Below are positions 5,785 to 39,696 of a stretch of 64,000 nucleotides of DNA, in pieces. A program made the translations under genes and the position numbers. The first letter of the stretch is position 1. Each line of letters starts with the position of its first letter. The DNA comes from Brevundimonas sp. Lineage in GTDB: Bacteria > Pseudomonadota > Alphaproteobacteria > Caulobacterales > Caulobacteraceae. Location: the NCBI RefSeq assembly GCF_016742135.1, contig NZ_JACVCG010000002.1, positions 124,001-188,000 on the forward strand. The letters are read 5' to 3'. Below the pieces are notes generated by a model. It did not search any database and had not been told where the DNA came from. It saw only the letters and a list, made by a program, of their open reading frames with translations.

Positions 5785-5793
5785 AGGCAGCGC

Positions 5794-6108: not shown

Positions 6109-6252
6109 GGTGGGCTCCTTGCAGCCAGTCCCGGACCTAGCACGCGGCACGGGGGTCGACCTAGCCGCGCCGCCTTGTGAAACAGGGCCTGTCCCGCTAA
6201 TCCCGCCGTGTCGGGCCGCGTGCCCGTTCACCCGAGTTGTGGAGAGGCCGGA

Positions 6253-6540: not shown

Positions 6541-6541
6541 T

Positions 6542-21611: not shown

Positions 21612-21749
21612 GGGGCAGGGCGGCTTCCTGTCTGAGGTCCCGGCATCACACCACAGTCCGCTGACCGTCCCGTTAACGCACGAGCCTGTCGTCGTCGCTG
21701 AACAGCCTGTTGCGCACCCGCGCCGGCTCGGCTATCGACGGCGCCTGCC

Positions 21750-21841
21750 GGAGACGTGGCCGAGTGGCTGAAGGCAACGGTTTGCTAAATCGTCGTACCC
21801 TGTAAGGGGTACCGAGGGTTCGAATCCCTCCGTCTCCGCCA
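21750..21841 (+). tRNA. tRNA-Ser (anticodon GCU), CCA encoded
   Basis: 92 bases. Acceptor GGAGACG pairs with CGTCTCC at 21831-21837, discriminator G, then CCA. D-arm GGCCGAGTGGCTGAAGGC, anticodon loop TTGCTAA (GCU, reads AGC/AGU), a long variable arm (GTACCCTGTAAGGGGTAC) and T-arm GGGTTCGAATCCC. The long variable arm confirms serine. The lasso-peptide cluster starts 54 bases downstream. Confidence 0.97.
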
Positions 21842-21894
21842 GAACCTTCCCCTTCCGATCTTGCCAGCGGGGTGGAAACGGGCGAGCAGGGCGT

Positions 21895-22803
21895 GTGCCC
21901 GATTATGCTTGCGTCGATTTCGTCCTGCGTTCCGACATTCCGCTTCCCGAACTGATCGAGGTCGGGACGGACGCCGGTCGGGATGTTGTGCCCGTGCAGC
22001 GAGGGACGGTGGCGTCGGCGGGCCCCAACTGGCTGGAGTGTGACGGCGATACGGCTGTGCTGGCCATCCCCGGCGTGGCGAGGTTCCGGATCGAAAACGG
22101 TCGGTCCATGACCGTGGATGTTGACGAGGGCTGCTCCGAGCGGAACCTGCGACTGTATCTCCTGGGCTCGGCGCTGGGCATCCTCATTCACCAGCGGGGC
22201 CTGTTTCCCCTGCACGCCAATGCGGTGGTCATGGACGGTGTCGCCGTGACGTTCACCGGGCATTCCGGCGCGGGAAAGTCGACCCTCGCCGCCTGGTTCT
22301 CGGCGGCCGGCCACACGGTGCTCAGCGACGATGTCTGTGTCATCGGTTTTGATACCGCCCGGCGTCCCATCGTCTATCCGGGATTGCCCCGTGTGAAGCT
22401 GTGGGCCGACGCGGCGAAATTCCACGGCCACGACATCGACGGTCTTGAGCGGATCCACGATGACCTGGACAAGTATCAGCTGGGGCTGCCCGCTCGTCCG
22501 GATCAGGGCCCCGTGCCGCTGGCCGCTGTCATCCGCCTGAGCCGCGCGGATGAACAGCCCGCGGGCCTTCGCCAGCTTCGCGGGCGCGCCGCGGTGCAGT
22601 TGCTGATGGCAGAAACCTATCGCCCGCAGGTCGTCACCGCGCTGAACCTCCAGCAGGCCCACTTCGGCCACTGCGTGTCCATTGCCGCCGCCGTTGCCGT
22701 TCTGGATTGGACGCGCAAATGGGGGCATGAGGTTTTCGAGGCCGAGGTCGAACAGCTGATTCGTCAACTCGGACAGGTGAAGATCGACGAACGGACGGGG
22801 TGA
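21895..22803 (+). CDS. HPr-kinase-like lasso peptide kinase
   Basis: 302 residues. The N-terminal half is a variable domain (VDFVLRSDIPLPEL...), the second an HprK-type ATP-binding domain: LFPLHANAVVMDGVAVTFTGHSGAGKSTLAAWF, with a P-loop at about residues 122-130, and VLSDDVCVIG. Homologues in paeninodin-type lasso clusters phosphorylate the C-terminal Ser hydroxyl of the precursor. The precursor found downstream ends in Ser. GTG start at 21895, preceded by GAGCAGGGC. First gene of the cluster; 10 bases separate it from the PqqD-like gene. Confidence 0.85.
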   Translation: MPDYACVDFVLRSDIPLPELIEVGTDAGRDVVPVQRGTVASAGPNWLECDGDTAVLAIPGVARFRIENGRSMTVDVDEGCSERNLRLYLLGSALGILIHQRGLFPLHANAVVMDGVAVTFTGHSGAGKSTLAAWFSAAGHTVLSDDVCVIGFDTARRPIVYPGLPRVKLWADAAKFHGHDIDGLERIHDDLDKYQLGLPARPDQGPVPLAAVIRLSRADEQPAGLRQLRGRAAVQLLMAETYRPQVVTALNLQQAHFGHCVSIAAAVAVLDWTRKWGHEVFEAEVEQLIRQLGQVKIDERTG

Positions 22804-22813
22804 GGGCGCGCGC

Positions 22814-23101
22814 ATGGGGCATCAGAGGTTTCAGGATGAGGATCAGATCGTCGCCGCCCGGGGCCTGTTGACCACGCGGGTGGACGGCGAGGTCATGGCC
22901 ATGAGCATCGACCGGGGGGCCTGCTACGGGCTGGATCCGATCGGCTCGCGCATCTGGGAATTGCTGGAGACCCCGATCACCGTCGGCGACCTGGTCGCTC
23001 GCCTGACCCGGGAATATGAGGTGGACGCCGCCGTCTGCAGGACCGATGTCTGCGCCCTTTTGTCCAGTATGGAATCCGAGGGGATGATCCTGCGCGTCTA
23101 G
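22814..23101 (+). CDS. PqqD-family RiPP recognition protein (lasso B1)
   Basis: 95 residues: winged-helix PqqD/RRE fold with VAARGLLTTRVDGEVMAMSIDRGACYGLDPIGSRIWELLETPITVGDLVARLTREYEVDAAVCRTDVCALLSSMESEGMILRV. In lasso clusters this stand-alone domain (B1) binds the precursor leader and delivers it to the B2 protease and C cyclase. Conserved Trp in RIWELLE and the C-terminal GMI/L-V motif are visible. Followed by about 197 bases without a long gene before the precursor. Confidence 0.9.
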   Translation: MGHQRFQDEDQIVAARGLLTTRVDGEVMAMSIDRGACYGLDPIGSRIWELLETPITVGDLVARLTREYEVDAAVCRTDVCALLSSMESEGMILRV

Positions 23102-23298
23102 GATGAATCACCGCTCGTCGGCAGGATGTCGGATGCGAGTCACCCGGGCATTGGGGCCACCAACTGACTGTTTCGATTCAGGGCGTAAAGAGGGCTAAGC
23201 CCTTGTAGCCCCGAAAAAGAATTCGCGCTTTGGTGGATATCCGTTGACTGCTGCTTCGGATATGTCAGGCTGTCGTCACATCCGCAGGGACAATCAGA

Positions 23299-23454
23299 AT
23301 GCGTAATCCGATCAACGACGAGCGTGATATTCAGCAATCGGGCGAGGCGACCAACCGCAAGCCGTGGCAGTCGCCCTCCCTGCTTCGGCTGGACGCGGAG
23401 CATGCCGAGTTGAATCCGGCTCCCGGTGTCGACGCCAACACCTCCGCCTCCTGA
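23299..23454 (+). CDS. lasso peptide precursor (A), 51 residues
   Basis: Short frame from ATG 23299 (CAGGGACA ribosome site upstream) to TGA 23454, between B1 and the cyclase. Leader region has K21-P-W-Q-S-P-S-L-L-R-L-D32, matching the WQxP/YxxP-Lxx-LD recognition motif of paeninodin-type precursors. By alignment with that family the core would be LNPAPGVDANTSAS (residues 38-51), an 8-residue ring from Leu38 to Asp45; a 9-residue Glu37-Asp45 ring is the alternative. The usual Thr at -2 is Ala here. The only Asp in the second half is Asp45, the natural isopeptide acceptor. C-terminal Ser51 fits the kinase. Core boundary is inference. Confidence 0.75.
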   Translation: MRNPINDERDIQQSGEATNRKPWQSPSLLRLDAEHAELNPAPGVDANTSAS

Positions 23455-23597
23455 CATTTAACCTGTCTGCGACAGGCTTTGGCGGAAGGCGTTTGGCTTG
23501 GGCATCGCCCTGCCGTAGGGTTTTCGGGTTGGGATAGCCTCGGGCTGTTCGTTGGTCTGGCTGTCTGACACGTGATGAACCCGGGAACACGGACGCA

Positions 23598-25532
23598 ATG
23601 ACGGCGCTTGCGGGCGTATGGCGTCTGGACGGGCGGGCCGCCGCCGAGTCCTGCCGTTTGATGAACATCGCCCAGGCTCTCTATGGTCCGGACGGCGAGG
23701 GATTCTGGGACGGGGGCGATGTCGCCTTCGGCCTGCGCCGGTTTGACTGTCTGGATGAGGACCGGTTCGACACCCCACCCCTGACCAGCGGGTGTGGACG
23801 CTACCACCTGGTTGCCGATGTGCGCCTCGACGACCGGAACGGTCTGTCCGAAAGGCTGGGTCTGGATCCCGGCCAGACCGCGATTGCCTCTGATACCCGC
23901 CTGCTTCTGGCGGCATGGGAGCGGTGGCAGACCGGCCTGTTTGACCATGTATACGGCGATTATGCCTTTGCCGTCTGGGACGCACGCGACCGGCAGCTGG
24001 TCCTGGCGCGCGACGCCCTGGGGGGCAAGCCCCTGCATTACCATCGCCAGGGCGGGCTGTTCGCCTTTGCCTCCATGGCCAAGGGATTGCACGCCTTGCC
24101 GGAAGTGCCGATTGGCCCCAATCCCGCGCGCATGGCCGAGCTTCTGGCCCTCCTGCCGGAAAGCGGTCCCGAGACCTGGTTTCAGGATATCTATCGGGTT
24201 GAGCCGGGTTGCTATGTCCGGGTGGATGCGACGGGCCAGACCCGTCACCGACACTGGAATCCCGATCGATCCATGCCGGTCCCCGAGACATTCCAGGCGC
24301 AGGTTGAGGGGCTGCGCCGACATCTGGACCGGGCGGTTCAGGCGCGATTGCGGGGGGCTGGCCGTCGGATCGGCAGCCATCTCAGCGCCGGTCTGGACAG
24401 TTCCGCTGTGGCGGCCACCGCAGCCAGGCTGATGGCGGAACGGGGCGGCCGCGTCACAGCCTTCACCTCTGCTCCCCGGCGGGGCTTTGAGCTTCCCGGC
24501 ACCCCCGGTCGGGTCGAGGACGAGACCGAACTCGCGGCGGCCACGGCGGCGCTCTATCCGAACATGGACCACGTCGTGCTGCGCAATGACGGCCGCGATC
24601 TGACGGCGGGCCTTGACCGGGCTTTTCACACATCCGAGCGGCCCGTGCTCAACATCTGCAATGCGCGCTGGATCGATCACATTCATGACGAGGCGCGGCG
24701 ACTGGGCCTGAATGTGCTGCTGATCGGCACCATGGGCAATATGAGCTTCAGCTTCGACGGCAAGACCCTGCCCGGTGAGCTGATCCGAAGGGGCGACCTG
24801 ATCGGCTTTCTGCGTCAGGGCCAGGCGCTGTCGCGTGAGAAGCGGATGAACTGGCAGGGCTACATCGCCCAGGCCCTCGGGCCCTGGATGCCGTCCATAC
24901 TCTGGAAAGGGATCAACCGGATCCGCGGCCGCGTGGCGTCGCTCCGCGACTATTCGGCCGTGAACGAGAGCGCGGTCACCGCCTATGATCTGGAACGCCG
25001 GGCCCGGGAAAGAGGTCATGACCTCGAGTATCGTTCCGAGGCCGATGCCTTTGCCCAGCGTCTCCGCATTCTGGAACGCGTGGACGTGGCCAACTATGCC
25101 AAGGGTGTGACGGGCGGCTGGGGGCTGGATGTCCGCGACCCCACCGCAGATCGGCGACTGGTGGAGTACTGCCTCGCCCTGCCGACCGAAGCCTTTCTCT
25201 CGGGCGGCCTGCCTCGCCGTCTGGCGCGTCTGGGGCTGTCCGACCGTCTTCCCGCCGCCGTGCTGCAGGAACGACGCAAGGGCTATCAGGCTGCCGACTG
25301 GTACGAGAATGTGAAAACCTCGCGCCAGTCCCTGCTTCAGGAGGTCAGTCGATTGCGCAACGTTGACGGCGTCGCGGATATTCTTGATCTCGACCGGCTC
25401 GAGAGTCTTCTTCAGTCCATGCCCGAGGACGGAGGATCCGGTCAGGAAATCATGTATGCCTATCGTCTGCTGCTCCTGCGGGGGGTTTCCGCCGGCCACT
25501 TCATGCGCAAGGCGGCCCGCACCAATGCCTGA
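23598..25532 (+). CDS. lasso peptide isopeptide-forming cyclase (asparagine-synthetase-like, C protein)
   Basis: 644 residues, two-domain McjC/AsnB-like. The N-terminal Ntn-like domain (about 1-220) begins MTALAGVWRLDG, with Thr rather than Cys at position 2, so glutaminase activity is lost, as expected of lasso cyclases. The synthetase domain has SAGLDSSAVAATAARLM at about residues 263-279 (PP-loop for adenylation) and GGWGLDVRDPTADRRLVEYCLALPTEAFL near the C-terminus. It adenylates the Asp/Glu side chain of the precursor and forms the macrolactam ring. 12 bases precede the exporter start. Confidence 0.9.
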   Translation: MTALAGVWRLDGRAAAESCRLMNIAQALYGPDGEGFWDGGDVAFGLRRFDCLDEDRFDTPPLTSGCGRYHLVADVRLDDRNGLSERLGLDPGQTAIASDTRLLLAAWERWQTGLFDHVYGDYAFAVWDARDRQLVLARDALGGKPLHYHRQGGLFAFASMAKGLHALPEVPIGPNPARMAELLALLPESGPETWFQDIYRVEPGCYVRVDATGQTRHRHWNPDRSMPVPETFQAQVEGLRRHLDRAVQARLRGAGRRIGSHLSAGLDSSAVAATAARLMAERGGRVTAFTSAPRRGFELPGTPGRVEDETELAAATAALYPNMDHVVLRNDGRDLTAGLDRAFHTSERPVLNICNARWIDHIHDEARRLGLNVLLIGTMGNMSFSFDGKTLPGELIRRGDLIGFLRQGQALSREKRMNWQGYIAQALGPWMPSILWKGINRIRGRVASLRDYSAVNESAVTAYDLERRARERGHDLEYRSEADAFAQRLRILERVDVANYAKGVTGGWGLDVRDPTADRRLVEYCLALPTEAFLSGGLPRRLARLGLSDRLPAAVLQERRKGYQAADWYENVKTSRQSLLQEVSRLRNVDGVADILDLDRLESLLQSMPEDGGSGQEIMYAYRLLLLRGVSAGHFMRKAARTNA

Positions 25533-25544
25533 TTGCCCCTGCTG

Positions 25545-27263
25545 ATGGAAAAGTCTGTTGCCTTTGCCAGGGATCTGGCCCGCTACATCGGGGGTCGGGC
25601 ACCGGGGCTGATCATTCTGGTGGCCCTGGGGGCGCTTCTGGAGGGGTTCGGCCTGGTCCTGCTGGTGCCGCTGCTTGGAACGCTGTTCGCGGACACCACA
25701 ACCCTGACCGGGCCGCTTGGGGTCTTGCTGAATCTCTGGCCGGAGGTTCAGGGAGCCCCCCGGCTGGTCCTCGTTCTGGCCCTGTTCGGAATGGTCACGG
25801 GACTGCGTGCGCTGGTCCTGTGGCAGCGGGACCTGCGCATGGGGCAGCTCCAGGTGGGATATCTGGAGAGCAAGAGGTCCACGCTGGCGCGGGCGCTCGC
25901 CAACAGCCGGTGGGAAGCGCTGAACGCGCTCGGGCACGGTCGTGTCACCCATCTGATGGGGGGAGACATCCAGCGGTGTGCCTCGGGTGTGTATTTCCTG
26001 CTGCAGGGCGGTGTGGCCGTCGTCCTTCTGGTTATCCAGGCGGGGGTAGCCGTGGCCCTTGCTCCGGTTCTGGCGCTTTTCGCGCTGATCTCATTGACGC
26101 TCGGAGCCCTTGTCATGGGGCGCTGGCTGGGAGCCACCCGCGAGATCGGCGCCCGGGTCACCTCGTCGAACATGCGGCTGATGGTCGAGCTGGGTCGCTT
26201 CCTGGGCGGGCTCAAGGCCGCCATGAGTCAGAATCTGCATTCCGCCTTCGTCGCCGCCTTCGAACGGGATCTCGACGTGGCTACCCGCCAGCAGGTGGCC
26301 TTCATCAATCGCCAGGCGGCCATGCGGGTCATGTGGAGCCTGCTGGGCGCAGCCGTGGCCTCGGTCTCCCTGCTGCTGGGATTTCTGGTGCTCGACTATC
26401 CGCCGGCCGTCATGCTGACCCTGCTGGTCGTGCTCGCGCGGATCGCGGGCCCCGCCATACAGATCCAGTCGGGCCTGCAGCAGGTCGCCTATGCCCTGCC
26501 GGCGTGGGAGGCGGTTCAGGAGACCCTTGATGAGTTGGGCCGCGAGGCCCGCATCGCCGTGGACGACAGCCCGGATGCCGGCGCATTGCAGGGCCCCGTC
26601 CGACTGCAAGACGTCACCTATCTGCACGAGGGGGCGACCGATGGACGGGGTGTTCGCGCCCTGTCCCTGACGCTCCGGTCCGGAGAGTTCGTGGCCGTTA
26701 CCGGCATGTCGGGCGCGGGCAAGACCACCTTTGCCGATCTACTGGCTGGTCTGCTTGAGCCGCAGCAGGGCTGTATCCGTGTCGGCGATCACACCCTTGA
26801 TGCGCGGACCGTTTCCACATGGAGGGACCGTCTCGCCTATGTGACCCAGGATCCGCTGCTGTTCAACGACACAATCCGCGCCAATCTGCTCTGGGGGGGT
26901 GTCGAGGCGGACGAGGCCCGGATAGAGCAGGCGCTTGCCCTGACCGGCGCGGACCGGGTCGTGTCCCGGCTGTCCCTGGGACTGGACAGCGTCGTCGGCG
27001 AGGACGGAGCCATGGTATCGGGCGGAGAGCGCCAGCGGCTGGCCCTGTCCCGCGCCCTGCTCCGGCGTCCCGACGTCCTCGTGCTGGACGAGGCGACGGC
27101 CGCTCTCGATACCGACAGCGAAGACGCGGTCCTGAAGGCGCTGGCCGAACTCGACCCCCGACCCCTGATCCTGATGATCTCGCACCGCTCTGACAGTCTG
27201 TCGGTGTGCAGTCGTCGCCTGACCTTCGACGAGGGACGTCTGGTCGACGACCGGCAGCTGTGA
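25545..27263 (+). CDS. ABC exporter, transmembrane plus ATPase (lasso D protein)
   Basis: 572 residues. Six-helix transmembrane domain (about 1-320) followed by an ATPase domain with Walker A GMSGAGKTT at about residues 387-395, signature VSGGERQRLALSRAL and Walker B VLVLDEATAALD. No C39 peptidase domain. In lasso clusters this type exports the mature peptide and confers immunity. Start ATG 25545; a TTG at 25533 in frame is less likely. The GTGA overlap with the next gene points to a tightly coupled operon. Confidence 0.88.
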   Translation: MEKSVAFARDLARYIGGRAPGLIILVALGALLEGFGLVLLVPLLGTLFADTTTLTGPLGVLLNLWPEVQGAPRLVLVLALFGMVTGLRALVLWQRDLRMGQLQVGYLESKRSTLARALANSRWEALNALGHGRVTHLMGGDIQRCASGVYFLLQGGVAVVLLVIQAGVAVALAPVLALFALISLTLGALVMGRWLGATREIGARVTSSNMRLMVELGRFLGGLKAAMSQNLHSAFVAAFERDLDVATRQQVAFINRQAAMRVMWSLLGAAVASVSLLLGFLVLDYPPAVMLTLLVVLARIAGPAIQIQSGLQQVAYALPAWEAVQETLDELGREARIAVDDSPDAGALQGPVRLQDVTYLHEGATDGRGVRALSLTLRSGEFVAVTGMSGAGKTTFADLLAGLLEPQQGCIRVGDHTLDARTVSTWRDRLAYVTQDPLLFNDTIRANLLWGGVEADEARIEQALALTGADRVVSRLSLGLDSVVGEDGAMVSGGERQRLALSRALLRRPDVLVLDEATAALDTDSEDAVLKALAELDPRPLILMISHRSDSLSVCSRRLTFDEGRLVDDRQL

Positions 27264-28456
27264 GGCCGGGCGAGGCTCTACCCCTGCCCCTGGCCCTCCA
27301 CGTCGTGGCCACCTGCTGCCGCCCGGCCGACGGGGGTGCGCGTGGCGAGGCGCTGCGAACCCTGATGGCCAGTCCACGCGTCGATATGGACCGCTTGCTC
27401 CAGACCGTGGCGCGGCACCGGGTGGCCCCGCAGGTCCACCGGGCGCTGACCGAGGCCGGTGTCGCTCTGCCTGCGGACACGGCCGCGCATCTCGCCGGCC
27501 TGGCCGGGCAGGCCGCCCGGCGCAGTCTGAACCTCGCGCGCGAAAGCCTGTTCCTACAATCCGCCTTCGATCAGTTCGGGCTGGATGCCACCTTCGTGAA
27601 GGGGTCTGCGCTTGCCCTTCTGATTCACGGGGACGTGGGCATGAAGGACTCCTGGGACATCGATCTTCTGGTGCCTCCGGATCAGGTCGATGCCGCCTGC
27701 CAGCTCCTGCTGGCCCAGGGTTACACCCTTCATTACCCGACCGGCCTGTCTCCCGAAGCGTTCGGCCGCTTCCAGGCGGTGGCCAAGGAATGTGTCTTCT
27801 TTCATCCCGGGCGGCAGGTCTATCTCGAGCTTCACTGGAAGCTTGTCGACAATCCGCATGAACTTGCGGGACTGGATGTTCGCCGCACCCAGACCGTCGC
27901 TCTGGGCGCGGGCAAGTTGCGGACGCTCGCCGATCCCGAACTGTTCGCCTACCTCTGTGTTCACGGCACCCGTCACAGCTGGTCGCGGCTGAAATGGATC
28001 GCTGACGTGGCCGCTTTCCTGAAAGGCCGCGACAGGGATGAGGTTGCCCGGTTGAGGGACGAGGCCGTGGCCATGGGCGCGGGGCGCGCGCCGGATGTGG
28101 CGCTGGCTCTCTGTCGGGGACTGTTCGGCCGCCACCTGCCCGTGACCCGCCTGGACGCCGCCGGCCGTTATCTGGTGCGCGCGGCCCATGCCAGCCTGAC
28201 CCACGGCGGGGGCGTGACCGAGATCGCGGCCTACAGCAAGCCGTGGCGCATGACCTGGATCGGCCGCCATCTGATCGGGACCAGCGGCAAAGCCTTCCTG
28301 GCGGAACTGCAGAGCAACTGGGCCGGGGATTACGACCGCGTTCACATCCCCCTGCCGCAGGGACTGGGCTTCCTCTACGTCGTGATCCGGGTCCCGCTGT
28401 GGCTCTGGCGCAAGGCGCGCCGGCGTCTGGCAGGGGGAAGCGATGAAGCTGCGTGA
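27260..28456 (+). CDS. nucleotidyltransferase-family protein of lasso cluster
   Basis: About 398 residues. Central NTase motif FVKGSALALLIHGDVGMKDSWDIDLLV (Gly-Ser then D133-I-D135), typical of the uncharacterised nucleotidyltransferase family PF14907 that often neighbours lasso kinases. From memory, a homologue in the Bacillus pseudomycoidin cluster acts after the kinase to add further groups; that parallel is not proven here. Start taken at GTG 27260, overlapping the exporter stop by four bases. The C-terminus overlaps the B2 gene by 14 bases. Confidence 0.8.
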   Translation: MRPGEALPLPLALHVVATCCRPADGGARGEALRTLMASPRVDMDRLLQTVARHRVAPQVHRALTEAGVALPADTAAHLAGLAGQAARRSLNLARESLFLQSAFDQFGLDATFVKGSALALLIHGDVGMKDSWDIDLLVPPDQVDAACQLLLAQGYTLHYPTGLSPEAFGRFQAVAKECVFFHPGRQVYLELHWKLVDNPHELAGLDVRRTQTVALGAGKLRTLADPELFAYLCVHGTRHSWSRLKWIADVAAFLKGRDRDEVARLRDEAVAMGAGRAPDVALALCRGLFGRHLPVTRLDAAGRYLVRAAHASLTHGGGVTEIAAYSKPWRMTWIGRHLIGTSGKAFLAELQSNWAGDYDRVHIPLPQGLGFLYVVIRVPLWLWRKARRRLAGGSDEAA

Positions 28457-28847
28457 CGTCCCCATACTGACCGAGGCCGTGCTGGCGCTCGGCGTGGGGG
28501 CCTTCTGCCTCGCCTTTGTGCCGTTCCGCCATGTGGCCAGGCATGGCGTGCAATCAGGTGGCCGTCCGGCCCGGACGCGCGACGACATCATGCCCGTCCG
28601 TCGTGCGGTGCGTCGCGCCGCCCGGAATGTGCCCTGGCGTGCCCTGTGTTTCGAACAGGGACTGGCGGCCCACGTCATGCTGAGGCGACGCGGGATCTCC
28701 AGCGTCCTTCACTACGGCGTTGCGCGGGACGGGCCGGGGGACGCGCTGAAGGCCCACGTCTGGGTTACATCGGGCGAGCAGATGGTGGTCGGCGGCGAGG
28801 TGGCCGGGCAATTCACTGAACTGGCCCGCTTTTCCGGGACAGCGTAA
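28443..28847 (+). CDS. lasso leader peptidase, transglutaminase-like (B2)
   Basis: 134 residues with a short N-terminal hydrophobic segment (ILTEAVLALGVGAFCLAFV) and a transglutaminase-like core: WRALCFEQGLAAHVMLRRRGISSVLHYGVARDG, with Cys69 as the predicted nucleophile, and LKAHVWVTSGEQMVVGG, with His105. The third catalytic residue is not obvious (Glu112 could serve). B2 cleaves the leader after B1 has bound it. A separate B1 and B2, rather than fused McjB, is common outside microcin J25 clusters. P450 starts 37 bases later. Confidence 0.87.
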   Translation: MKLRDVPILTEAVLALGVGAFCLAFVPFRHVARHGVQSGGRPARTRDDIMPVRRAVRRAARNVPWRALCFEQGLAAHVMLRRRGISSVLHYGVARDGPGDALKAHVWVTSGEQMVVGGEVAGQFTELARFSGTA

Positions 28848-28884
28848 GCAGGACGTCGCAGCCGAGTCGCGCGGAGGGGCGGGG

Positions 28885-30147
28885 ATGAAGGAGACGCAGG
28901 CCCGGGCCACGGTCGACCTGCCGCATCTGATCTTTCAGGGGCGCGAGCCCCTGCGCTTTCCCGGCATGATCAGGGCGCTTCAGGCCCCCGATCATCACTG
29001 GCCGGACTCCTGCCTGGACGAACCATTCGTCGAGGCGACGGTCGGGCGCCGTCGCATGGTGATGATCACCGATCCGGCCGTGGTGACCGAAATGCTGCGG
29101 AACCGCACAGGGCAATTCCGCAGGTCCCGACTTCACGACCGGATTCTCGGCAGCAGCTTTGGCGACACCCTGCTTCAGGGCGAACAGATTGAATGGCCGG
29201 AACGGCGGCAGGCCATGCTGCGCCCGATCCACGAAGCGTCCGGGGACGTCGCTGTCGATCCGGTGGGTCTGGCCTGCACCCAAGCCCTGTCGGATTGGCA
29301 GGAGGGCCCGGTCGATTTGCTCCGGACGGCGCGGCATCTGACGATGCAGGCCCTGTGGCGGGCCTTTTTCTGCGACGAGGCCGAGGCACGGCACAGTGAT
29401 CCGCTGCTGGTTGACGCCGCGAACCATATGGACCGGCTGGCCCATGCCCCCCTGCAGGATCAGATCGAATGCCTGCGTCCGCTCGGCACCCGGGCGGTCG
29501 AAATCCGCAGGGAGGATAACGGCGACCCGGATCGCCTGATGAATACCACCCTGCTGTTCCTGCACGCCGGACACGACAACGCGACGGCCACCCTGACCTG
29601 GGCGCTCTGGCTGCTGGCAAGGCACCCGGGGATTCAACAGCGGGTGCATGACGAATGGAGTCGCGGCTCCGGCACGTCAAGGCCCGTACCTGACCTGCGC
29701 GCCTTTCCCCTGACCAGCGCCGTCATCCATGAAACGTTGCGGCTCTATCCTCCCATTCCCCAGCTTCTGCGGGACGTCACCGTGGATCTTCCGGTCGGCG
29801 GCCAGGTCGTGGACAAGGATTTCATCGCTGTCCTCGGGATCTATGCCATGCACCGCCACCGGCGCCTCTGGGACCGGCCCGATGCGTTTGATCCCGACCG
29901 CTTCATGGACAACGGCCTGACCGCTCATCGCCGGCTTTGGCTGCCGTTCGGTGCCGGCCCCAGAGGCTGCGTCGGCACCTCCTTCGCTTTCACGGTGCTC
30001 AGCCGCGCGATCGGCCAGGTGGTCACGGATTATGAGCTGTTCCCCAACCCCGGCCACGATCTGACCTGCCGGGTCGACTATACCCTCAGGCCCTGGGGTC
30101 GTGCCCCGGTCCGGGTCACCCCGCGGCACCCGGGCGGGCGGTCCTGA
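28885..30147 (+). CDS. cytochrome P450 linked to lasso cluster
   Basis: 420 residues. I-helix motif AGHDNATATL (residues 228-237, with Asn where an acidic/Thr pair is more usual), ExxR at E283-R286 (ETLRLYPPIPQLLR), PDAFDPDRF meander region, and haem ligand Cys362 in FGAGPRGCVG. All parts needed for haem binding are present. It would insert oxygen into an unknown substrate; position suggests the lasso peptide or an attached group. 37 bases after B2 and 6 bases before the MBOAT gene, so co-transcription is likely. No dedicated ferredoxin or reductase gene is adjacent. Confidence 0.85.
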   Translation: MKETQARATVDLPHLIFQGREPLRFPGMIRALQAPDHHWPDSCLDEPFVEATVGRRRMVMITDPAVVTEMLRNRTGQFRRSRLHDRILGSSFGDTLLQGEQIEWPERRQAMLRPIHEASGDVAVDPVGLACTQALSDWQEGPVDLLRTARHLTMQALWRAFFCDEAEARHSDPLLVDAANHMDRLAHAPLQDQIECLRPLGTRAVEIRREDNGDPDRLMNTTLLFLHAGHDNATATLTWALWLLARHPGIQQRVHDEWSRGSGTSRPVPDLRAFPLTSAVIHETLRLYPPIPQLLRDVTVDLPVGGQVVDKDFIAVLGIYAMHRHRRLWDRPDAFDPDRFMDNGLTAHRRLWLPFGAGPRGCVGTSFAFTVLSRAIGQVVTDYELFPNPGHDLTCRVDYTLRPWGRAPVRVTPRHPGGRS

Positions 30148-30153
30148 TCCGTC

Positions 30154-31650
30154 ATGAGCTTTCACAGCCTCGACTATCTGCTGTTCCTGCCGCTCGTCGT
30201 GGTGCTGTATTTCTTCACGCCGCAGCGGTGGCGGTGGGTCGTTCTGCTCGCTCTCAGCAATCTGTTCTACGCAGCCTGGCGGTGGGACTTCCTCTGGCTG
30301 CTGTGGGTTTCCACCCTGATCGACTTCGTCGTGGGGCAGGGGCTGCCCCGTGCCCGGCCGGGGTGGCGACGCAAGGCCCTGCTGTCGGTCAGCCTGTGTG
30401 GCAATCTCGGCCTGCTGTTCACCTTCAAATACTTCGCGCTTGTCGCCAATACCGGCCTGACCCTGTTCCACGGGGGTGACAGCCAGGCGTTCGAGCCGAT
30501 CAGCCTGCTGCTGCCGCTCGGCATATCCTTCTACACCTTCCAGACCCTGGGCTATGTGATCGACGTCTATCGCGGTCGCCGTCAGCCGGAGCGACACCTC
30601 GGCTATTTCGCCGTCTACGTCATGTATTTCCCCCAGCTTCTGGCGGGGCCGATCGAGCGCCCGGGGTCCCTGCTGCCCCAGCTCCGTCGTCACAAGGTGT
30701 TCGAGGTCGGTCGGGCCGCGGCCGGCGGCGCCCTGATGCTGGTCGGCTATTTCAAGAAGCTGGTGATCGCCGATCGACTGGCCGACATCGTGCCGCCGGT
30801 GCTGAGCCAGCCGCTCGACCATTCGCCGCTTCTGGTTCTGGCCGCGGCCGCGGGTGAGATCTACCGCTACTATGCCGATCTGTCGGGCTATGCCGACATC
30901 GCCATCGGCACCAGCCTGATCCTCGGCATCCAGCTGACAAAGAATTTCGACCGCCCGCTCGCGTCGGTCTCGGTGGCCGAATTCTGGCGGCGGTGGCACA
31001 TCACCGTGTCCAACTGGTTCCGCGACTATGTCTATCTGCCGATCAGCCGGGGTGCCGCCAGGGGCAGGGGGCACCGGGACACCCGGGCGGCCCGTTCAGC
31101 GGCCGCGACCCTGCTCACCCTCGTGCTCGTCGCCCTGTGGCACGGGGCCGCCTGGACCTGGCTGGCGGCGGGCCTTGTCGCGGGTCTGGTAATGATCGGC
31201 GAAGGCGTCGTCCGTCGCAGTCGCAGCGCGACGGCGCTGTCGAACGGCCTGTCGCGCGCGCTCGGACTGTCCCGAGGCGTGGAGGTCTTCCTTCAGAACG
31301 GTCTGAACCGGGTCGTGCTGTGGAGCTTCCTCATCCTCCTGGGGTCCCTGGTCGCGACGCCCGGCTGGCAGACGTCCGTCCAGACCTGGGGCCAGATGGC
31401 CGCGCTGCCTGCATGGGCCATCGACGACCCCCGGGCGTTGCTGTCGGGCTTCGGCATCCTGCCCCGCTATCTGATCATCGCCATCGTCGCCCTGGAGATT
31501 TACCAGTGGCTGGACGCGCGACAGCCGGTGTTCGAGCGCCTGAAATCACGTGGCCCGGTCGTCGCCTGGGGCTTCTACTACGCCCTGATCGCGGTCATTC
31601 TGATATTCGGGACCTTCGACAAACCCGGCTTCCTCTATTTCAACTTCTGA
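30154..31650 (+). CDS. MBOAT-family membrane O-acyltransferase (AlgI/DltB-like)
   Basis: 498 residues, about 10-12 membrane helices. Diagnostic MBOAT segments: PLGISFYTFQTLGYVIDVYRG, YVMYFPQLLAGPIERP, FWRRWHITVSNWFRDYVYLPISRG (His282) and ALWHGAAWTW (catalytic His330). AlgI/DltB-type enzymes move acyl groups from a cytoplasmic donor to polymers or peptides outside. The next gene supplies an SGNH-like partner, as in AlgI-AlgJ and DltB-DltD. Could act on the lasso peptide or on the nearby exopolysaccharide; context favours the former by spacing only. Confidence 0.88.
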   Translation: MSFHSLDYLLFLPLVVVLYFFTPQRWRWVVLLALSNLFYAAWRWDFLWLLWVSTLIDFVVGQGLPRARPGWRRKALLSVSLCGNLGLLFTFKYFALVANTGLTLFHGGDSQAFEPISLLLPLGISFYTFQTLGYVIDVYRGRRQPERHLGYFAVYVMYFPQLLAGPIERPGSLLPQLRRHKVFEVGRAAAGGALMLVGYFKKLVIADRLADIVPPVLSQPLDHSPLLVLAAAAGEIYRYYADLSGYADIAIGTSLILGIQLTKNFDRPLASVSVAEFWRRWHITVSNWFRDYVYLPISRGAARGRGHRDTRAARSAAATLLTLVLVALWHGAAWTWLAAGLVAGLVMIGEGVVRRSRSATALSNGLSRALGLSRGVEVFLQNGLNRVVLWSFLILLGSLVATPGWQTSVQTWGQMAALPAWAIDDPRALLSGFGILPRYLIIAIVALEIYQWLDARQPVFERLKSRGPVVAWGFYYALIAVILIFGTFDKPGFLYFNF

Positions 31651-31660
31651 CGGGGATCCG

Positions 31661-32656
31661 ATGCGCCGCCTGATCCTCTTTTTCATTCTGGGCGCGGTCC
31701 TGCTCGCCGGGCTCAACCTCGTGTCGCGTCCGTTCGACGACAACCGTCAGATGGACGCCATGAATGCCCTGCTCGCCGATACCCCGGGCAAGGAGGCCAT
31801 CATCGTCGGCAGTTCCGTCGGAGGGGCGATCCGTTTTGACACCCTTTGCCTCGACGGGGCGGATTTCTTCTTTGTCCTTCAGGACGTGTTCGAGACCCGC
31901 GCCATGGTCGAGCTGGTCCTCAGTCGTCCCGACCCGCCCCGAACGTGGTTCCTGGCGCTCAGTCCGGGCGCGGCGCTCTACAACAACGCCATCCCGGCGT
32001 CAGGGCGCAGCCACAACCGGCGCATCACCTACCGCTTCCTGTTCGAAAACGGCCGTAGCGGTCTGATCGACGGCGACTGGCGTCAATATGCCGTGACCCG
32101 GATCTCCCCCGCCCTGGGCTATCAGGACTGGCGCAGGCGGTTTCAGCAGATGCTGGTGACGGCCGGTCTTCGCCCCCCCGCCAGACCGATCGATACCCTG
32201 ATCTGGCGGCTCGATGGCACACTGGACCCCGCGCAGGACGCCGGCATGGCACAGGGCCAGGTATCGGACCGGACGGCCGAGATCAGGGCCATCGCCTTTT
32301 ATGACGCGCACGTGGCGCAACGATCTGCCCGGGCGATCAGCGACATCCACAAGCGGATCCGGGCCGCGGGCGGACAGCTGTACATCATCGTGCCTCCGGC
32401 CTCACCCGGAATGCAGGCCAGTACCCTTCGCCATCTGGATGCCGAGCTTCAAACCCTGTGGCGGTCCCTGGACGAGATCGAGGCGGAGGGTGCCGTGGTC
32501 ATCAATGGCTGGCGAGACCCGGCCCGTTCCTATCCGGCCGAGTTGTTCGTCGACCCCAACCACATGAATCCGGAGGGCGCGCGTCTGTTTTCCACGGATA
32601 TCGCCTCCGCGCTCAAGGCGCGGGGCCACGGGGAAGGGGTAACATGTCCCGGTTGA
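31661..32656 (+). CDS. SGNH-hydrolase-like partner of MBOAT (AlgJ/DltD-type role)
   Basis: 331 residues: one N-terminal membrane anchor (LILFFILGAVLLAGLNL), then an exported domain with EAIIVGSSVGGAIRFDTL (Gly50-Ser51-Ser52, block I-like) and LFVDPNHMNPEGARLFSTDIASAL (Asp298-x-x-His301, block V). That is the catalytic pattern of SGNH acyl-transfer proteins working with MBOAT enzymes. Overall similarity to named families is too weak for me to specify. Starts 10 bases after the MBOAT stop. Confidence 0.75.
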   Translation: MRRLILFFILGAVLLAGLNLVSRPFDDNRQMDAMNALLADTPGKEAIIVGSSVGGAIRFDTLCLDGADFFFVLQDVFETRAMVELVLSRPDPPRTWFLALSPGAALYNNAIPASGRSHNRRITYRFLFENGRSGLIDGDWRQYAVTRISPALGYQDWRRRFQQMLVTAGLRPPARPIDTLIWRLDGTLDPAQDAGMAQGQVSDRTAEIRAIAFYDAHVAQRSARAISDIHKRIRAAGGQLYIIVPPASPGMQASTLRHLDAELQTLWRSLDEIEAEGAVVINGWRDPARSYPAELFVDPNHMNPEGARLFSTDIASALKARGHGEGVTCPG

Positions 32657-32734
32657 ATTCACGCGCCGTCTCCCCAGCCCGTGCAAGCCATGATAGCGTC
32701 AGCCGTCCGAGCCTGTATCGGCGAGGGAGGCAGT

Positions 32735-33835
32735 GTGTCGAGTACCCGTAGAATCCGTCTGGCCCGGCTGGCGCAGCTGCTCGAGGGGGCGCCGCATCTG
32801 ACCCCGGCCTATGAAGAAGCCAAGCGGGTCGTGCGGGCTTTCCGCAAGCCCGCCTTCTATGAGGTCGCTACCCGCTGCAATCTGTTCTGCGAAGGCTGCT
32901 ATTATTTCTCCGACGATTTCAAACCGATCGAGGGTGTTGAGGGCGTCGACACCTGGGACCGGTTTTTTGCCGCCGAGGCGGAGCGCGGCGTCACCATGGC
33001 CTACTTCGTCGGGGCCGAACCAGCCCTGCATCAGGATCGCCTGATCGCCGCCGGCAAGTACTTCCCCTATGGCAACATAGGCACCAACGGCACGATCAGG
33101 ATCGATCCGTCCGTGCCCTACCGGATCGGGGTCTCGGTCTGGGGGGTGGAGGCCGATACCGACGCCGACCTGCGCGGCGGTCGCTCGTTCCACAAGGCCA
33201 TCCGCAACTATGCCGGCGATCCCCGCGCCATTCTGCTCTACACCCTGACGAAGACGAACCTCGGCGACGCCCGACGTCTGGCCGAGATCGGGCGCGACAA
33301 CGGCCTGCCGGTCACCTTCAACATGTATTCGCCGACCCACACCTATCTGCGCAAGCTGACCGAGGGGGAGGGGAATGATCGCGAATTCTTTCGCATTTCC
33401 AACCGGGAAAACAATCTTCTGTGGGATGAGGACAGCCTGTCGCAAGTCCTGCGCACCATGGATGACCTGATCGACGACTTTCCGGACACCGTTGTCTATT
33501 CGAAAGCCTACAACGCCTGGGCGACCCGACCGGGCCCCCTCTATGACGTCGATCCCGAGACCGGCATCGCCCGCGACTGCCATTCGCGGATGATCGGCCA
33601 GATGCGCTATTTCAAGACCGACCTGCAGCAGGGTCAGGAAAAGTGCGGCACCTCGGACGCCGTCTGTTCTGAATGCCGGATGTACAGCGGCGGCTGGTCG
33701 TCGAAATTCGAGCCGCGCGACGCCGATCTGGTCAGCGAGGCGTCACTGGCCGACTGGCTGGACATGATCGCCACTCTCGGGCGCATCTTCCTGATCGAAC
33801 GGGACGCGCCGCGGCAATCCACGCTCGCCGCCTGA
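32735..33835 (+). CDS. radical SAM protein with C-terminal cysteine cluster
   Basis: 366 residues. Radical SAM motif YEVATRCNLFCEGCYYF (Cys48-x3-Cys52-x2-Cys55). The C-terminal region has four more Cys (about residues 282, 304, 311 and 314 in DCHSR, EKCGTS and VCSECRMY), suggesting an auxiliary iron-sulfur cluster like SPASM/Twitch enzymes. Some resemblance to hopanoid-type HpnH radical SAMs, but not close. GTG start at 32735, with GGGAGG six bases before. 78 bases after the SGNH-like gene: last plus-strand gene of the cluster and a candidate tailoring enzyme. Confidence 0.82.
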   Translation: MSSTRRIRLARLAQLLEGAPHLTPAYEEAKRVVRAFRKPAFYEVATRCNLFCEGCYYFSDDFKPIEGVEGVDTWDRFFAAEAERGVTMAYFVGAEPALHQDRLIAAGKYFPYGNIGTNGTIRIDPSVPYRIGVSVWGVEADTDADLRGGRSFHKAIRNYAGDPRAILLYTLTKTNLGDARRLAEIGRDNGLPVTFNMYSPTHTYLRKLTEGEGNDREFFRISNRENNLLWDEDSLSQVLRTMDDLIDDFPDTVVYSKAYNAWATRPGPLYDVDPETGIARDCHSRMIGQMRYFKTDLQQGQEKCGTSDAVCSECRMYSGGWSSKFEPRDADLVSEASLADWLDMIATLGRIFLIERDAPRQSTLAA

Positions 33836-33844
33836 GCCACGCCG

Positions 33845-35419
33845 TCAGGCCGCCGACTGAACCCTGTCGAAGGGCGGGGCCTCCATAAGGGCCCACTCCG
33901 CGTCATAAACGCCCTTTTCCATGTGCACATAAAGCGACAGCATCCAGGTCGTCAGGATGTCCGCCAGCCCGTCGCGGATGTCCGGCCGGGCGCGCATCAG
34001 GCGGTTGGCCTTGCGGATGACGTCGGCGATCTCGGGATTGCCCCGGCTGACGGCGCGTAGCATCCGTCCAAAATGGGCATTGGCCCTGGCCCGCGACGGC
34101 GAATTGTAAAGCCGTCCGGTCCCGCGCTTCAGCAGGGGATTGGGCCCCAGAATGTCGGCCAGTGCCTCGAAACGCGTCCAGAACGCCGCCGGGCTGTACA
34201 GCCGACTGATCAGCCAGCGTGTGCCGGTATAAAGCTGTTGCTTGGTCATCTGGGCGGGGATGATGTTGGTCACCATGTCCGCCCCGGGGAAGTGCGCCTG
34301 CTCCCCCGTCAGGTCCAGCCGACCGGCCTTCAGCATCTCGTCATAGATGGGTGTGGCCATGGGCGCGACCAGCGAGGAAATCTTGAACGTCCCGACCGGC
34401 AGGCCCATGCCGAACCGGTATTGGCGCTCAAAAATCGTCAGATCGTCCGCGTCAAATCCGACCATCAGGGCGGCCTCGATCTTCAGGCCGTGGCTGGCCA
34501 CCTTGCGCAACTGGGCCTGCATGTCGGTGTTCAGGTTCTGGCGCTTCTTGCTGGCCTTCAGGCTCTCTTCGTTCACCGACTCCACGCCGATGAACAGGTT
34601 GGACACACCCGCCTCGGCACAGCGCACCAGCATCTCGTCGTCGCGCGCCACATCGATCGAGACCTGGGTGGCAAAGATCACATGATCGCGTCCCTCGTGC
34701 CCGTTCCAGGCGATCAGGGCGTCCAGCAGTTCGGTGGCGCGCTTGCGATAAACGGTGAAATTGTCGTCGGCTAGCGCGATGCGGTTATAGCCCAGATCAT
34801 ACAGGCGCTGGACCTCGGCGATCACCTGATCCGGCGTCTTGTGGCGCTGCTTGCGGCCCAGATACTGGATCACGTCACAATAGTTGCACTCGAACGGACA
34901 GCCGCGGCTGGTCTGCACCACCCCGACCAGAGCCCGGTCATTGTCGAACAGCTCCCAGGCCGGCACGGGCGAGCGCGACAGGTCGGGGCGGCCCCCCGAA
35001 TAGTGCGGTTTGAGCGAACCGCTCAGCATGTCAGCGAAAAAGCCCTCGGCGATCTCCTCGAACTCGCCGGTCACGGCAACGTCACAGGCACCCTCGAAGG
35101 CCCCGGGGTCCAGGGTGATGTGCGGCCCACCGATGATCACTGTCTTGCCCCGGGCCCGGAACTCACGGGCGATCTCGATTGCGCGCTTGGCTTGCGAGAC
35201 ATTGGCCGTGATGCCGACGAAGTCCGCATCGGTCTCGAAATCGACCGGCACCAGGGCTTCATCGTGGAGCGTGATGACAAGCCCGTCCGGCGCCATGGCC
35301 GCCACGGTGGCGATGGCGACCGGTGCCACCCGGGTCACCGAGTCGTCCGCTCCGCCGGAGATACCGGCGAAGTCGGCGTCCCAGTGCGGCCTGGGCGCGA
35401 TCAACAGAAAACGGACCAT
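33845..35419 (-). CDS. B12-binding-domain radical SAM protein
   Basis: About 524 residues. Rossmann-like B12-binding domain (RFLLIAPRPHWDADF... KTVIIGGPHITLDPGAFEGACDVAVTGEFEEIAEGF), then TSRGCPFECNYCD (Cys174-x3-Cys178-x2-Cys181). A C-terminal helical region (DUF4070-like) follows. The cobalamin DxHxxG motif is not seen, so B12 may bind differently or not at all. Such enzymes methylate or rearrange unreactive carbons. Converges with the previous radical SAM gene (9-base gap). The ATG at 35419 or the GTG at 35431 may be the start. Confidence 0.82.
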   Translation of the reverse strand: MVRFLLIAPRPHWDADFAGISGGADDSVTRVAPVAIATVAAMAPDGLVITLHDEALVPVDFETDADFVGITANVSQAKRAIEIAREFRARGKTVIIGGPHITLDPGAFEGACDVAVTGEFEEIAEGFFADMLSGSLKPHYSGGRPDLSRSPVPAWELFDNDRALVGVVQTSRGCPFECNYCDVIQYLGRKQRHKTPDQVIAEVQRLYDLGYNRIALADDNFTVYRKRATELLDALIAWNGHEGRDHVIFATQVSIDVARDDEMLVRCAEAGVSNLFIGVESVNEESLKASKKRQNLNTDMQAQLRKVASHGLKIEAALMVGFDADDLTIFERQYRFGMGLPVGTFKISSLVAPMATPIYDEMLKAGRLDLTGEQAHFPGADMVTNIIPAQMTKQQLYTGTRWLISRLYSPAAFWTRFEALADILGPNPLLKRGTGRLYNSPSRARANAHFGRMLRAVSRGNPEIADVIRKANRLMRARPDIRDGLADILTTWMLSLYVHMEKGVYDAEWALMEAPPFDRVQSAA

Positions 35420-35475
35420 GGAGTCAGGCACTCTCCCTGATCCCTTTGCTACACGTGTGCGGTGGCTGTGGCCAC

Positions 35476-35985
35476 TCAGGTCAGCGAGCAGTTGATCACG
35501 TTCTGGGCCCGCTGCGGCCCCGGCAGATGCCCCACGGCGCTGCCCGGCAGGCTGCTGAGATCATAGACAAAGGCTTGAAGATCATAGACGCTGCGGATGA
35601 ACCCCTGATCGCGCAGCACCCGCACGCCCCAGCAGTCCGCATTGGTCTCGCTGTTATAGGGGCCGAGCGCGTGGTGCCCGCATTCGTGGGCGAACCACCA
35701 CACCTGCACCAGCGGCTGAAAGCGGGCCAAAACATCAGGGTTCATGACGATGATCGGCCGACCGTTCCTTACGCGGGTCGCAATCCCCACGTTGTTGAGG
35801 CCCCTGGTCATGTAGATGCGCACGGGCTCGCCATAGAAGCTGACGCAGTTGAGCGGGACCCCGGCGATGTTGACCTGCCACATGCCACCGTCCTGGGCGC
35901 GGGCCGGGTCGGGGCCGGACGTCAGCGCGACCAGGGGCAGGGCAAGCGACAGAACGCCGCCAAGGATACGTCTGGACCGAACCAT
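35476..35985 (-). CDS. secreted HExxH metalloprotease-like protein
   Basis: 169 residues with signal peptide (MVRSRRILGGVLSLALPLVALTSGPDPARA) and zinc-binding VWWFAHECGHHALGPYNSETNADCWGVRVL: H100-E101-x-x-H104, with a downstream Glu/Asp region that could supply the third ligand. Four cysteines in the mature part could form disulfides. Not a full M48 protein; family unknown. The ribosome site GGAGGGAAG precedes ATG 35985. Confidence 0.75.
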   Translation of the reverse strand: MVRSRRILGGVLSLALPLVALTSGPDPARAQDGGMWQVNIAGVPLNCVSFYGEPVRIYMTRGLNNVGIATRVRNGRPIIVMNPDVLARFQPLVQVWWFAHECGHHALGPYNSETNADCWGVRVLRDQGFIRSVYDLQAFVYDLSSLPGSAVGHLPGPQRAQNVINCSLT

Positions 35986-36125
35986 TCTTCCCTCCATCCG
36001 GCCTCCCTTCTGAACCGGTAAAGCCGTCCTGTCGACCGATCGGCTGCAAGCGGCAGCGGGGAAACGATTCCCTCGCGCCCGCGCCCGGACTAAGCTTTCG
36101 CGGGTAGCAGGCGAAGCGAGGCAGG

Positions 36126-39586: not shown

Positions 39587-39696
39587 TCGGCAGCCCCCTC
39601 GACGAAGCTGTCGAAACGCCCGAGTCCGACAGGGGTTCCCAGGACATGTCAAGCGACCGGCTTGGGATTGACGGGTCAGCCGTCTAGGATCGCAGG

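Follow-up and report, generated by a model that had tools for sequence, protein, structure and literature searches.

Kinase and nucleotidyltransferase genes are known from several lasso peptide clusters. Those of paeninodin and pseudomycoidin contain a kinase with an H-K-D-D residue set, B1, B2, a cyclase and an exporter together with a precursor ending in Ser, and that of pseudomycoidin also includes a nucleotidyltransferase gene. The BsfA lasso cluster of Bradymonas, a Gram-negative bacterium, likewise has both a kinase and a nucleotidyltransferase gene and departs from the Thr(-2) rule, while the accessible parts of the literature place a P450 within the lasso pathways of nocapeptin and longipeptin. 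An earlier annotation based on the letters of the DNA (the sequence-only reading) had described a lasso peptide cluster in the window, the whole 64,000-nt stretch of Brevundimonas sp. DNA analysed here. It regarded the kinase and the nucleotidyltransferase as familiar, which the precedents of paeninodin, pseudomycoidin and BsfA bear out, and an appended oxidation and acylation set as unfamiliar in such clusters. The latter holds for the MBOAT and SGNH genes, of which no description in a lasso pathway was found in the open-licence literature, but not for the P450.

K, B1, the precursor, the cyclase, the exporter, the nucleotidyltransferase-like protein and B2 (Table 1) apparently constitute an intact lasso cluster of the known kinase/nucleotidyltransferase kind, as judged from their sequences. 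All open reading frames previously listed were recovered, collinear on the + strand, and the assignment to lasso peptides is supported by the families of B1 (PqqD), B2 (peptidase) and the asparagine-synthetase-like cyclase occurring together with a precursor. The cyclase comprises Asn_synthase and GATase_7 domains, with 'lasso peptide isopeptide bond-forming cyclase' as its best NCBIfam match, and its N-terminus reads MTALAG, with Cys absent from position 2. The lasso-specific NCBIfam cut-off was passed by B2 only, the cyclase and B1 scoring below theirs. B2 retains C69 and H105. In the HPr-kinase homologue H107, K128, D145 and D146 are all in place, which with the C-terminal Ser of the precursor corresponds to the paeninodin type, and the presence of both the kinase and the nucleotidyltransferase gene inside the cluster corresponds to the pseudomycoidin type. 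The overlaps or short gaps described earlier apply throughout except around the precursor gene, which is flanked by 197 and 143 nt.

Table 1. Features of the lasso peptide block and its left edge (window coordinates; values are E-values unless given in bits)
Feature	Position	Strand	Evidence
tRNA-Ser(GCT)	21750..21841	+	ARAGORN; left edge of block, integration site in genus
K, HPr-kinase-like peptide kinase	21895..22803	+	Hpr_kinase_C 0.00056, HprK_rel_A 33 bits, both below cut-off
B1, PqqD-type leader-binding protein	22814..23101	+	PF05402 1.2e-18; NF033536 70.9 bits, cut-off 80
Precursor A, 51 aa	23299..23454	+	Relatives in L020, L021; more distant one in Pseudomonas L016
C, lasso cyclase (asparagine-synthetase-like)	23598..25532	+	PF00733 5.5e-26; NF033535 250 bits, cut-off 525
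D, ABC exporter	25533..27263	+	PF00005 7.2e-30
Nucleotidyltransferase-like protein	27206..28456	+	PF14907 7.9e-44, 150 bits, cut-off 31
B2, leader peptidase	28443..28847	+	PF13471 2.3e-21; NF033537 75 bits, cut-off 33
Cytochrome P450	28885..30147	+	PF00067 3.3e-49; heme motif FGAGPRGCVG
MBOAT O-acyltransferase with C-terminal acyl-shuttle motif FLYFNF	30154..31650	+	PF03062 4.4e-27; DltB by sequence 2.4e-30
SGNH acyltransferase partner, membrane-anchored	31661..32656	+	ALGX 0.00049, below cut-off; GSS and DPNH motifs
Radical SAM protein	32735..33835 (longer ORF from 32681)	+	CxxxCxxC and later C-x2-C; Pfam only E 0.055
B12-binding radical SAM protein, convergent	33845..35431	-	PF04055 2.9e-19, B12-binding, DUF4070

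The precursor gene is real, because relatives sit at the same position in two genomes, and no family match over cut-off was found for it in Pfam and NCBIfam profile searches. The proposed core comprises residues 38-51, LNPAPGVDANTSAS. A lasso ring is expected to close on an acidic residue at position 7-9, and Asp occupies position 8 of the proposed core in the window as well as in its relatives from G035 and G077. The leader motif YxxPxL appears as WQSPSL, with Trp replacing Tyr, and as WTAPQL in the same two relatives. All three window-type precursors end in SAS and carry Ala instead of Thr at position -2 of the proposed cut site; the Pseudomonas relative has Thr there, and exceptions with Ile, Val or Ala are mentioned in the accessible part of one report (PMC10368454).

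Downstream of B2, the sequence-only reading gave gaps of 37, 6, 10 and 78 bases leading into the P450, MBOAT, SGNH and radical SAM genes, which is correct if the last begins at GTG 32735, a start supported by two relatives. The heme-binding FxxGxRxCxG of the P450 lies at residues 355-364. Its best NCBIfam match is ApyO at 103 bits against a cut-off of 525, and ApyO is not the best match for the P450s of loci L046 and L065. In all eight aligned MBOAT sequences, that of the window included, the C-terminal FXYXXF is present and H330 is invariant; with the Ser and Asp-x-x-His of the partner protein they make up the residues of an MBOAT-SGNH pair. FXYXXF is an acyl-shuttle motif of PatA and DltX according to the accessible parts of the sources. 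For the SGNH protein the Pfam matches (ALGX, GDSL) are all sub-threshold and a profile search of PDB sequences returned no match; the structures that its fold model (pLDDT 69.8) resembles include DltD and PatB. The CxxxCxxC and C-x2-C motifs of the radical SAM protein are invariant across eight aligned sequences; its fold model is of low confidence (pLDDT 66.7) with weak PDB matches, AbmM being the best (E 0.0014), as it likewise is by sequence (E 0.0062). The convergent B12-radical SAM gene, left out of the earlier description, is part of the block and, in each of the five genus genomes carrying these added genes, comes after the radical SAM gene.

The 12 genes are inherited together. A block of 13.6 kb (21852..35467), its edges defined by comparison of the window with the empty site of the nearest relative, G021, is missing from that genome and represented there by 120 nt; window positions 20932-21851 and 35468-41238 align to positions 1-922 and 1043-6813 of the G021 locus. 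The empty site spans both the lasso and the added genes, and the whole therefore came or went as one block. When co-occurrence was checked among genus genomes, as had been proposed, an identical set and order of the 12 genes was found in 2 of 130 others, G035 and G077, whose right flanks differ from that of the window. In both, the end of B2 with its stop and the in-frame ATG of the P450 overlap by 16 nt; the window strain has no such overlap. The added genes occur in 5 of 131 genus genomes, including all three with this lasso type, a coincidence with a naive chance of 2.7e-5 when the 131 genomes are counted and kinship is ignored. In 26 of 30 loci examined, one and the same sugar-transferase gene adjoins the tRNA-Ser, and in G077 a phage integrase stands beside this tRNA; a search of the window for another copy of its 3' end found none.

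We give a probability of roughly 0.42 to the reading that a lasso operon of the kinase/nucleotidyltransferase type and an oxidation/acyl-transfer module that also exists on its own have come together in one 13.6-kb block beside a tRNA-Ser, the module having most likely been recruited for modifying the exported, phosphorylated lasso peptide. The genes, their order, motifs, co-inheritance and overlap are read directly from the DNA, and from them we infer each chemical step, above all the acceptor. K would phosphorylate the C-terminal Ser of the precursor, B1 and B2 would cleave the leader before Leu38, and C would form an 8-residue ring from Leu1 to Asp8 in the 14-residue core, after which the nucleotidyltransferase-like protein may place a sugar on the phosphate and D may export the product. 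The P450, radical SAM and B12-radical SAM proteins could oxidise or methylate the peptide or the acyl donor. In the MBOAT, Tyr495 of the C-terminal shuttle motif would be loaded with an acyl group and pass it to the SGNH serine. The final acceptor would be a hydroxyl outside the cytoplasm, most probably one of the lasso peptide or of its sugar. The full scheme, in which the peptide or its phosphoserine sugar is O-acylated outside the cytoplasm through the tyrosine shuttle while the P450 and radical SAM enzymes oxidise acyl group or peptide, is put forward tentatively and with some doubt. Aromatic cross-linking of the proposed core by the P450 was rejected, since this core has no aromatic residue.

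It is also quite possible, at somewhat short of even odds, that the two halves are merely neighbours in one island, sharing transcription and transfer with separate chemistry, the lasso operon producing a phosphorylated peptide of its own and the module of P450, MBOAT, SGNH, radical SAM and B12-radical SAM genes independently building a group, or attaching one, on a different acceptor such as a small molecule, a lipid or a surface glycan. The added genes occur without lasso genes in two genus genomes (loci L046 and L047), G102 (100% complete) and G064 (77% complete), and the lasso peptide is therefore not their only acceptor. Conversely, 14 of 16 other lasso-cyclase loci (L014-L027, L072 and L073, searched up to 10 kb on each side) are without the block; four of the 16 (L018, L019, L026, L027) matched by their cyclase only and are perhaps not lasso clusters, and two further weak cyclase matches of G081, at the short loci L012 and L013, were left out of the count. 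The claim that the last four genes join the lasso genes thus stands for one operon-like, co-inherited block but not for a dedicated lasso set. Only lasso clusters of more remote kinship, that of G130 among them, were seen to lack the block. In more distant bacteria a radical SAM-P450 pair recurs at three loci of G170 and G805 (L065, L114, L115), beside a carbamoyltransferase at two of them, and distant radical SAM relatives sit among ACP, NRPS or quorum-signal genes. No P450, MBOAT or SGNH gene was found in the stretch examined near the weaker radical SAM matches, from outside the genus, of G152 (L066, 37%) and G291 (L067, 31-35%), a check from which the further weak matches of G163 and G389 were left out; plasmid records were examined for 2 of 58 and 2 of 14 entries in two listings, and a second PF13471 match in the window's own genome (L002/L028) has no lasso genes around it. 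Conservation is higher for radical SAM, B12-radical SAM and MBOAT than for the lasso genes. Four-fold sites are near random in the lasso genes and SGNH but not in the two radical SAM genes, and these differences suggest histories that are in part separate. That the P450 and SGNH evolve faster than the radical SAM genes was considered as a sign of coupling to the lasso genes and dropped, as the pair G102-G064, without lasso genes, ranks similarly. Against mere neighbourhood stand the B2/P450 overlap in two genomes, the single insertion or loss spanning both halves and the presence of the block in every genome of this lasso type.

Service of the module to the adjoining exopolysaccharide cluster (13.6-21.6 kb of the window), by O-acylation of the alginate or cellulose type, is improbable. 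Exopolysaccharide genes do lie immediately left of the tRNA, the MBOAT-SGNH pairs described in the accessible source work on envelope polymers, and a putative phosphohexomutase lies two genes from SGNH in G170 (L065:2178-3599). However, the exopolysaccharide genes of the window lie outside the block and on the opposite strand, 127 of 131 genus genomes have the adjoining sugar-transferase gene against five with the module, and the Pfam-checked neighbours of the module in G102 and G064 include no exopolysaccharide or other glycan genes; an acylation set belonging to the neighbouring cluster was rejected on strand, position and distribution, and the suspicion that the block mainly accompanies exopolysaccharide genes was not borne out. 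More improbable still is that the module protects the producer from its lasso peptide or alters the receptor, for instance by acylation of the envelope. Such a role would account for both the co-inheritance and the occurrence without lasso genes, and MBOAT-SGNH pairs act on envelopes in the sources as far as accessible, but a P450 and two radical SAM enzymes exceed its needs.

A lasso block followed by enzymes of small-molecule oxidation and cell-surface acylation hints at a new way to decorate lasso peptides. In the open-licence literature, no paper was found that combines a lasso peptide with a kinase, a nucleotidyltransferase and a P450, nor any description of the radical SAM-P450-MBOAT-SGNH set, the combination with a carbamoyltransferase included. 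Action of the module on the lasso peptide would mean a new way of making acylated lasso peptides and the first link between envelope acyl transfer and lasso peptides found in that literature; even otherwise, radical SAM-P450-MBOAT-SGNH is a module recurring in several genomic settings.

Compared with pseudomycoidin and paeninodin, for which the accessible parts of the reports name no P450, MBOAT, SGNH or radical SAM gene, the present precursors have Ala at the proposed -2 position and Leu or Asn as first core residue, and the nucleotidyltransferase-like protein is a putative counterpart of PsmN by annotation and place. BsfA differs in its phosphorylated Ser3 and Ile(-2), and its accessible description names no added genes of the present kind. 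The P450s of nocapeptin and longipeptin form cross-links, which in longipeptin join two Trp through a biaryl bond, according to the accessible text, unlike what the non-aromatic core proposed here would allow. Aminopyruvatide (Apy) biosynthesis also applies a P450 and a B12-radical SAM enzyme to a ribosomal peptide, but it involves Tyr cross-linking and an MNIO, and the ApyO score of the window P450 is far below cut-off. PatAB and DltBXD share the MBOAT His, the SGNH partner and the FXYXXF shuttle, which here and in PatA is part of the MBOAT itself, whereas their acceptors are peptidoglycan or lipoteichoic acid, and no P450, radical SAM or lasso genes accompany them in the accessible accounts. 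Should the proposed acceptor be correct, a ribosomal peptide would join the substrates of an MBOAT-SGNH machinery that those accounts otherwise connect with envelope polymers.

The gene content and collinearity that the sequence-only reading had described, in which lasso genes run on into P450, MBOAT, SGNH and radical SAM genes, were borne out by the order of the open reading frames (ORFs) and by family searches. Its eleven genes stood as stated, yet the block is in fact larger, with a convergent B12-radical SAM gene added as the twelfth. B2 scored above a lasso-specific NCBIfam cut-off and contains a Cys and a His, which presumably play the roles expected for a B2 peptidase. The best NCBIfam matches of the cyclase and B1 were lasso models, both under cut-off, and the kinase gave only HPr-kinase matches, all sub-threshold. 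This kinase has the H-K-D-D residues described for lasso kinases (PMC9266682).

Features of the block, its surroundings and related loci (window positions unless a locus is named)
Feature	Position	Strand	Content
Whole block	21852-35467		Twelve genes
Collinear genes	21895-33835	+	Eleven genes
Lasso cluster, first seven genes		+	HPr-kinase-like K, PqqD-type B1 (leader binding), 51-residue precursor, asparagine-synthetase-like cyclase (C), ABC exporter (D), NTP_transf_5 protein, B2 leader peptidase
Four genes after B2		+	P450, MBOAT, SGNH, radical SAM
B12-radical SAM		convergent	9 bases beyond the radical SAM gene
tRNA-Ser(GCT)	21750-21841		Beside exopolysaccharide sugar transferase
Flanks compared with G021	20932-21851 and 35468-41238		
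CrtO/phytoene-desaturase-like gene	36126-37715		Scored under the cut-offs; immediately to the right of the block, in the flank common to G021
Precursor-like stretches, Pseudomonas sp. MRCP1333	L016:11954-12458	opposite to cyclase	Two lasso precursor-like stretches; kinase and nucleotidyltransferase relatives close by
Lasso-like region, Azospirillum sp. TSH100 plasmid	L073:7788-20889		Asp/Asn beta-hydroxylase, 2OG-Fe(II) oxygenase and cupin genes
Radical SAM-P450 pairs, distant Pseudomonadota	L114:7498-11905, L115:3603-6034, L065:4369-11829		Carbamoyltransferase at 2/3
Cousin clusters of G107 and G002	L068:1479-11638 and L069:9008-19341		L069 in part by ORF order only

Two further genomes of the genus, G035 and G077, contain all 12 genes in the window's order. 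In both, the in-frame ATG of the P450 gene lies within the end of B2 (overlap 16 nt); the window has a 37-nt gap there and no overlap. The three genomes have in common a left flank of exopolysaccharide genes and tRNA-Ser; to the right of the block, G035 and G077 partially match each other and not the window. Judged by its flanking sugar transferase (92%), G021 is the closest relative. It is missing from both the cyclase and the module match lists of the 131 genus genomes, and its counterparts of the two window flanks are separated by 120 bases. This empty site indicates that the block was either gained or lost as one whole. In the second nearest relative, G084, the contig ends within the tRNA. 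Among the best 30 of 127 genomes, tRNA-Ser adjoins the sugar transferase at 26 of 30 loci, one of them truncated where its contig stops; only in G021 does the window's right flank adjoin this pair. G077 carries a phage integrase and a resolvase between the tRNA and the block, with a tRNA 3'-end piece preceding the kinase; therefore, within the genus, the tRNA-Ser(GCT) locus serves as an integration site. A metallophosphatase/nSTAND protein is also encoded there in G077. Pfam searches found no integrase among the 12 block genes, and no second tRNA-Ser end was found within the window.

The lasso genes and the added genes (P450 to B12-radical SAM, hereafter the module) are distributed differently. 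Among the 131 genus genomes, the window's own (G000) included, the cyclase matched in 8 at E 1e-20, with 65% identity only in G035 and G077 besides G000. SGNH (E 1e-5) and radical SAM (E 1e-10) marked an identical set of 5/131, namely G000, G035, G077, G102 and G064. The P450 matched in 61/131 at E 1e-20, reaching at least 45% identity only in these five; the others among the matches listed were partial in length and at most 39% identical. The B12-radical SAM gene occurred in the five plus G002 and G107 (63%). Radical SAM matches numbered 4/299 in the family, all from this genus, 6/385 in the class and 3/398 in the phylum, each count including the window's own genome.

G102 and G064 keep the module in order with no lasso genes in the stretch examined. 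The G064 contig starts 166 bases before the P450, so that the left side is beyond its reach, and no cyclase match was found across this genome (77% complete). In G102, the module is preceded by an opposite-strand ORF, read by eye as spermidine-synthase-like (two overlapping ORFs there gave no Pfam match), and then by an amidase and a peptidase. Outside the genus, radical SAM adjoined P450 at all three loci with radical SAM identity of at least 49%. In G170, from another family of the class, a carbamoyltransferase, an MBOAT (41%) and an SGNH-like gene (25%) are divergent from this pair, and a gene read by eye as phosphohexomutase-like lies near; G805, from another family of the phylum, has the pair on two short contigs, one with a carbamoyltransferase. 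The radical SAM-P450 pair is possibly a separate biosynthetic unit. Near the weaker radical SAM matches in G152 (37%) and G291, neither P450 nor MBOAT was found in the stretch examined. Fourteen plasmid records held radical SAM matches, and of the two examined (identity 27-33%), the Methylomagnum one has the match beside ACP, dioxygenase and NRPS genes, and the Burkholderia one has genes for ACPs, a chlorinating enzyme and AHL synthase in its vicinity.

Conversely, 16 loci with a lasso cyclase were examined beyond the window. Two of them (L020 and L021) also hold P450, MBOAT, SGNH and radical SAM genes, and none of the four was found in the stretch examined at the other 14. In G130, which belongs to this genus too, K, B1, D, nucleotidyltransferase and B2 accompany a cyclase at 34%, and this genome is absent from the P450, SGNH and radical SAM match lists of the genus search.

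Protein identities between G000 and G035 were 93% for B12-radical SAM, 87% for radical SAM, 84% for MBOAT and 58-71% for the lasso genes, P450 and SGNH. At four-fold sites the two genomes agree at 0.67 in both radical SAM genes, 0.56 in MBOAT, 0.49 in P450, 0.36 in SGNH and 0.39-0.47 in K, C, D and the nucleotidyltransferase gene. The random expectation is 0.35-0.52 for the block genes, and seven flank genes gave 0.54-0.75. These uneven values tell against a single uniform history and favour recombination or separate ages of the genes.

The block is a known kind of lasso cluster physically joined, with gene overlap in two genomes, to a module with an independent existence. The earlier view of one system was half right: the joining and the overlap support it, but the module also occurs on its own. 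Decoration of the lasso peptide by the module is the single most likely reading. Almost as probable is that the two gene sets travel together with no shared chemistry.

In G035 and G077, a relative of the precursor is encoded between the B1 and cyclase genes. A tblastn search added two remoter relatives from a Pseudomonas, of which one was examined full-length. Manual alignment of the precursors at the leader motif (WQSPSL in the window, WTAPQL in G035/G077, YVAPRI in Pseudomonas) suggests the cores LNPAPGVDANTSAS for the window, NDVTPGSDGITSAS and NDVTPGTDGITSAS for G035/G077, and FGIGPGIDGTTLFAS for Pseudomonas. All four proposed cores share Asp8 and a terminal Ser in this alignment. At the proposed cut site, residue -2 is Ala in the window, G035 and G077; in Pseudomonas it is Thr, as is usual, and this lends support to the register. 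Leaders departing from Thr(-2) are on record (PMC10368454). The C-terminal Ser is described as the phosphorylation site of paeninodin and pseudomycoidin (PMC9266682, PMC8498205), and the latter is reported to carry a sugar on its phosphoserine. Such a sugar on the lasso peptide would be a natural acyl target.

The closest PDB sequence to the MBOAT was DltB (E 2.4e-30), and its C-terminus, FLYFNF, fits the FXYXXF motif found there in all eight aligned MBOAT sequences, the window's included. The Tyr of this motif in PatA was shown to be acetylated from acetyl-CoA, and handover of the acetyl to the SGNH serine of PatB is supported (PMC12148441). The SGNH protein has a hydrophobic N-terminal stretch and GSS and DPNH motifs, and its structure model, of middling confidence, matched DltD, PatB and other SGNH proteins. 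Taken together, the shuttle motif, the DltB likeness and the SGNH motifs and model make it well supported that the pair would transfer an acyl group to some acceptor outside the cytoplasm. The cousin set of G107 comprises AMP-ligase, P450, ACP, carbamoyltransferase, MBOAT, an SGNH-like protein (assigned by place and motif, with no Pfam match) and B12-radical SAM, and that of G002, in which the P450 is a fused pair, resembles it in the order of its ORFs; both recall a Dlt-like pathway with a carbamoyl group.
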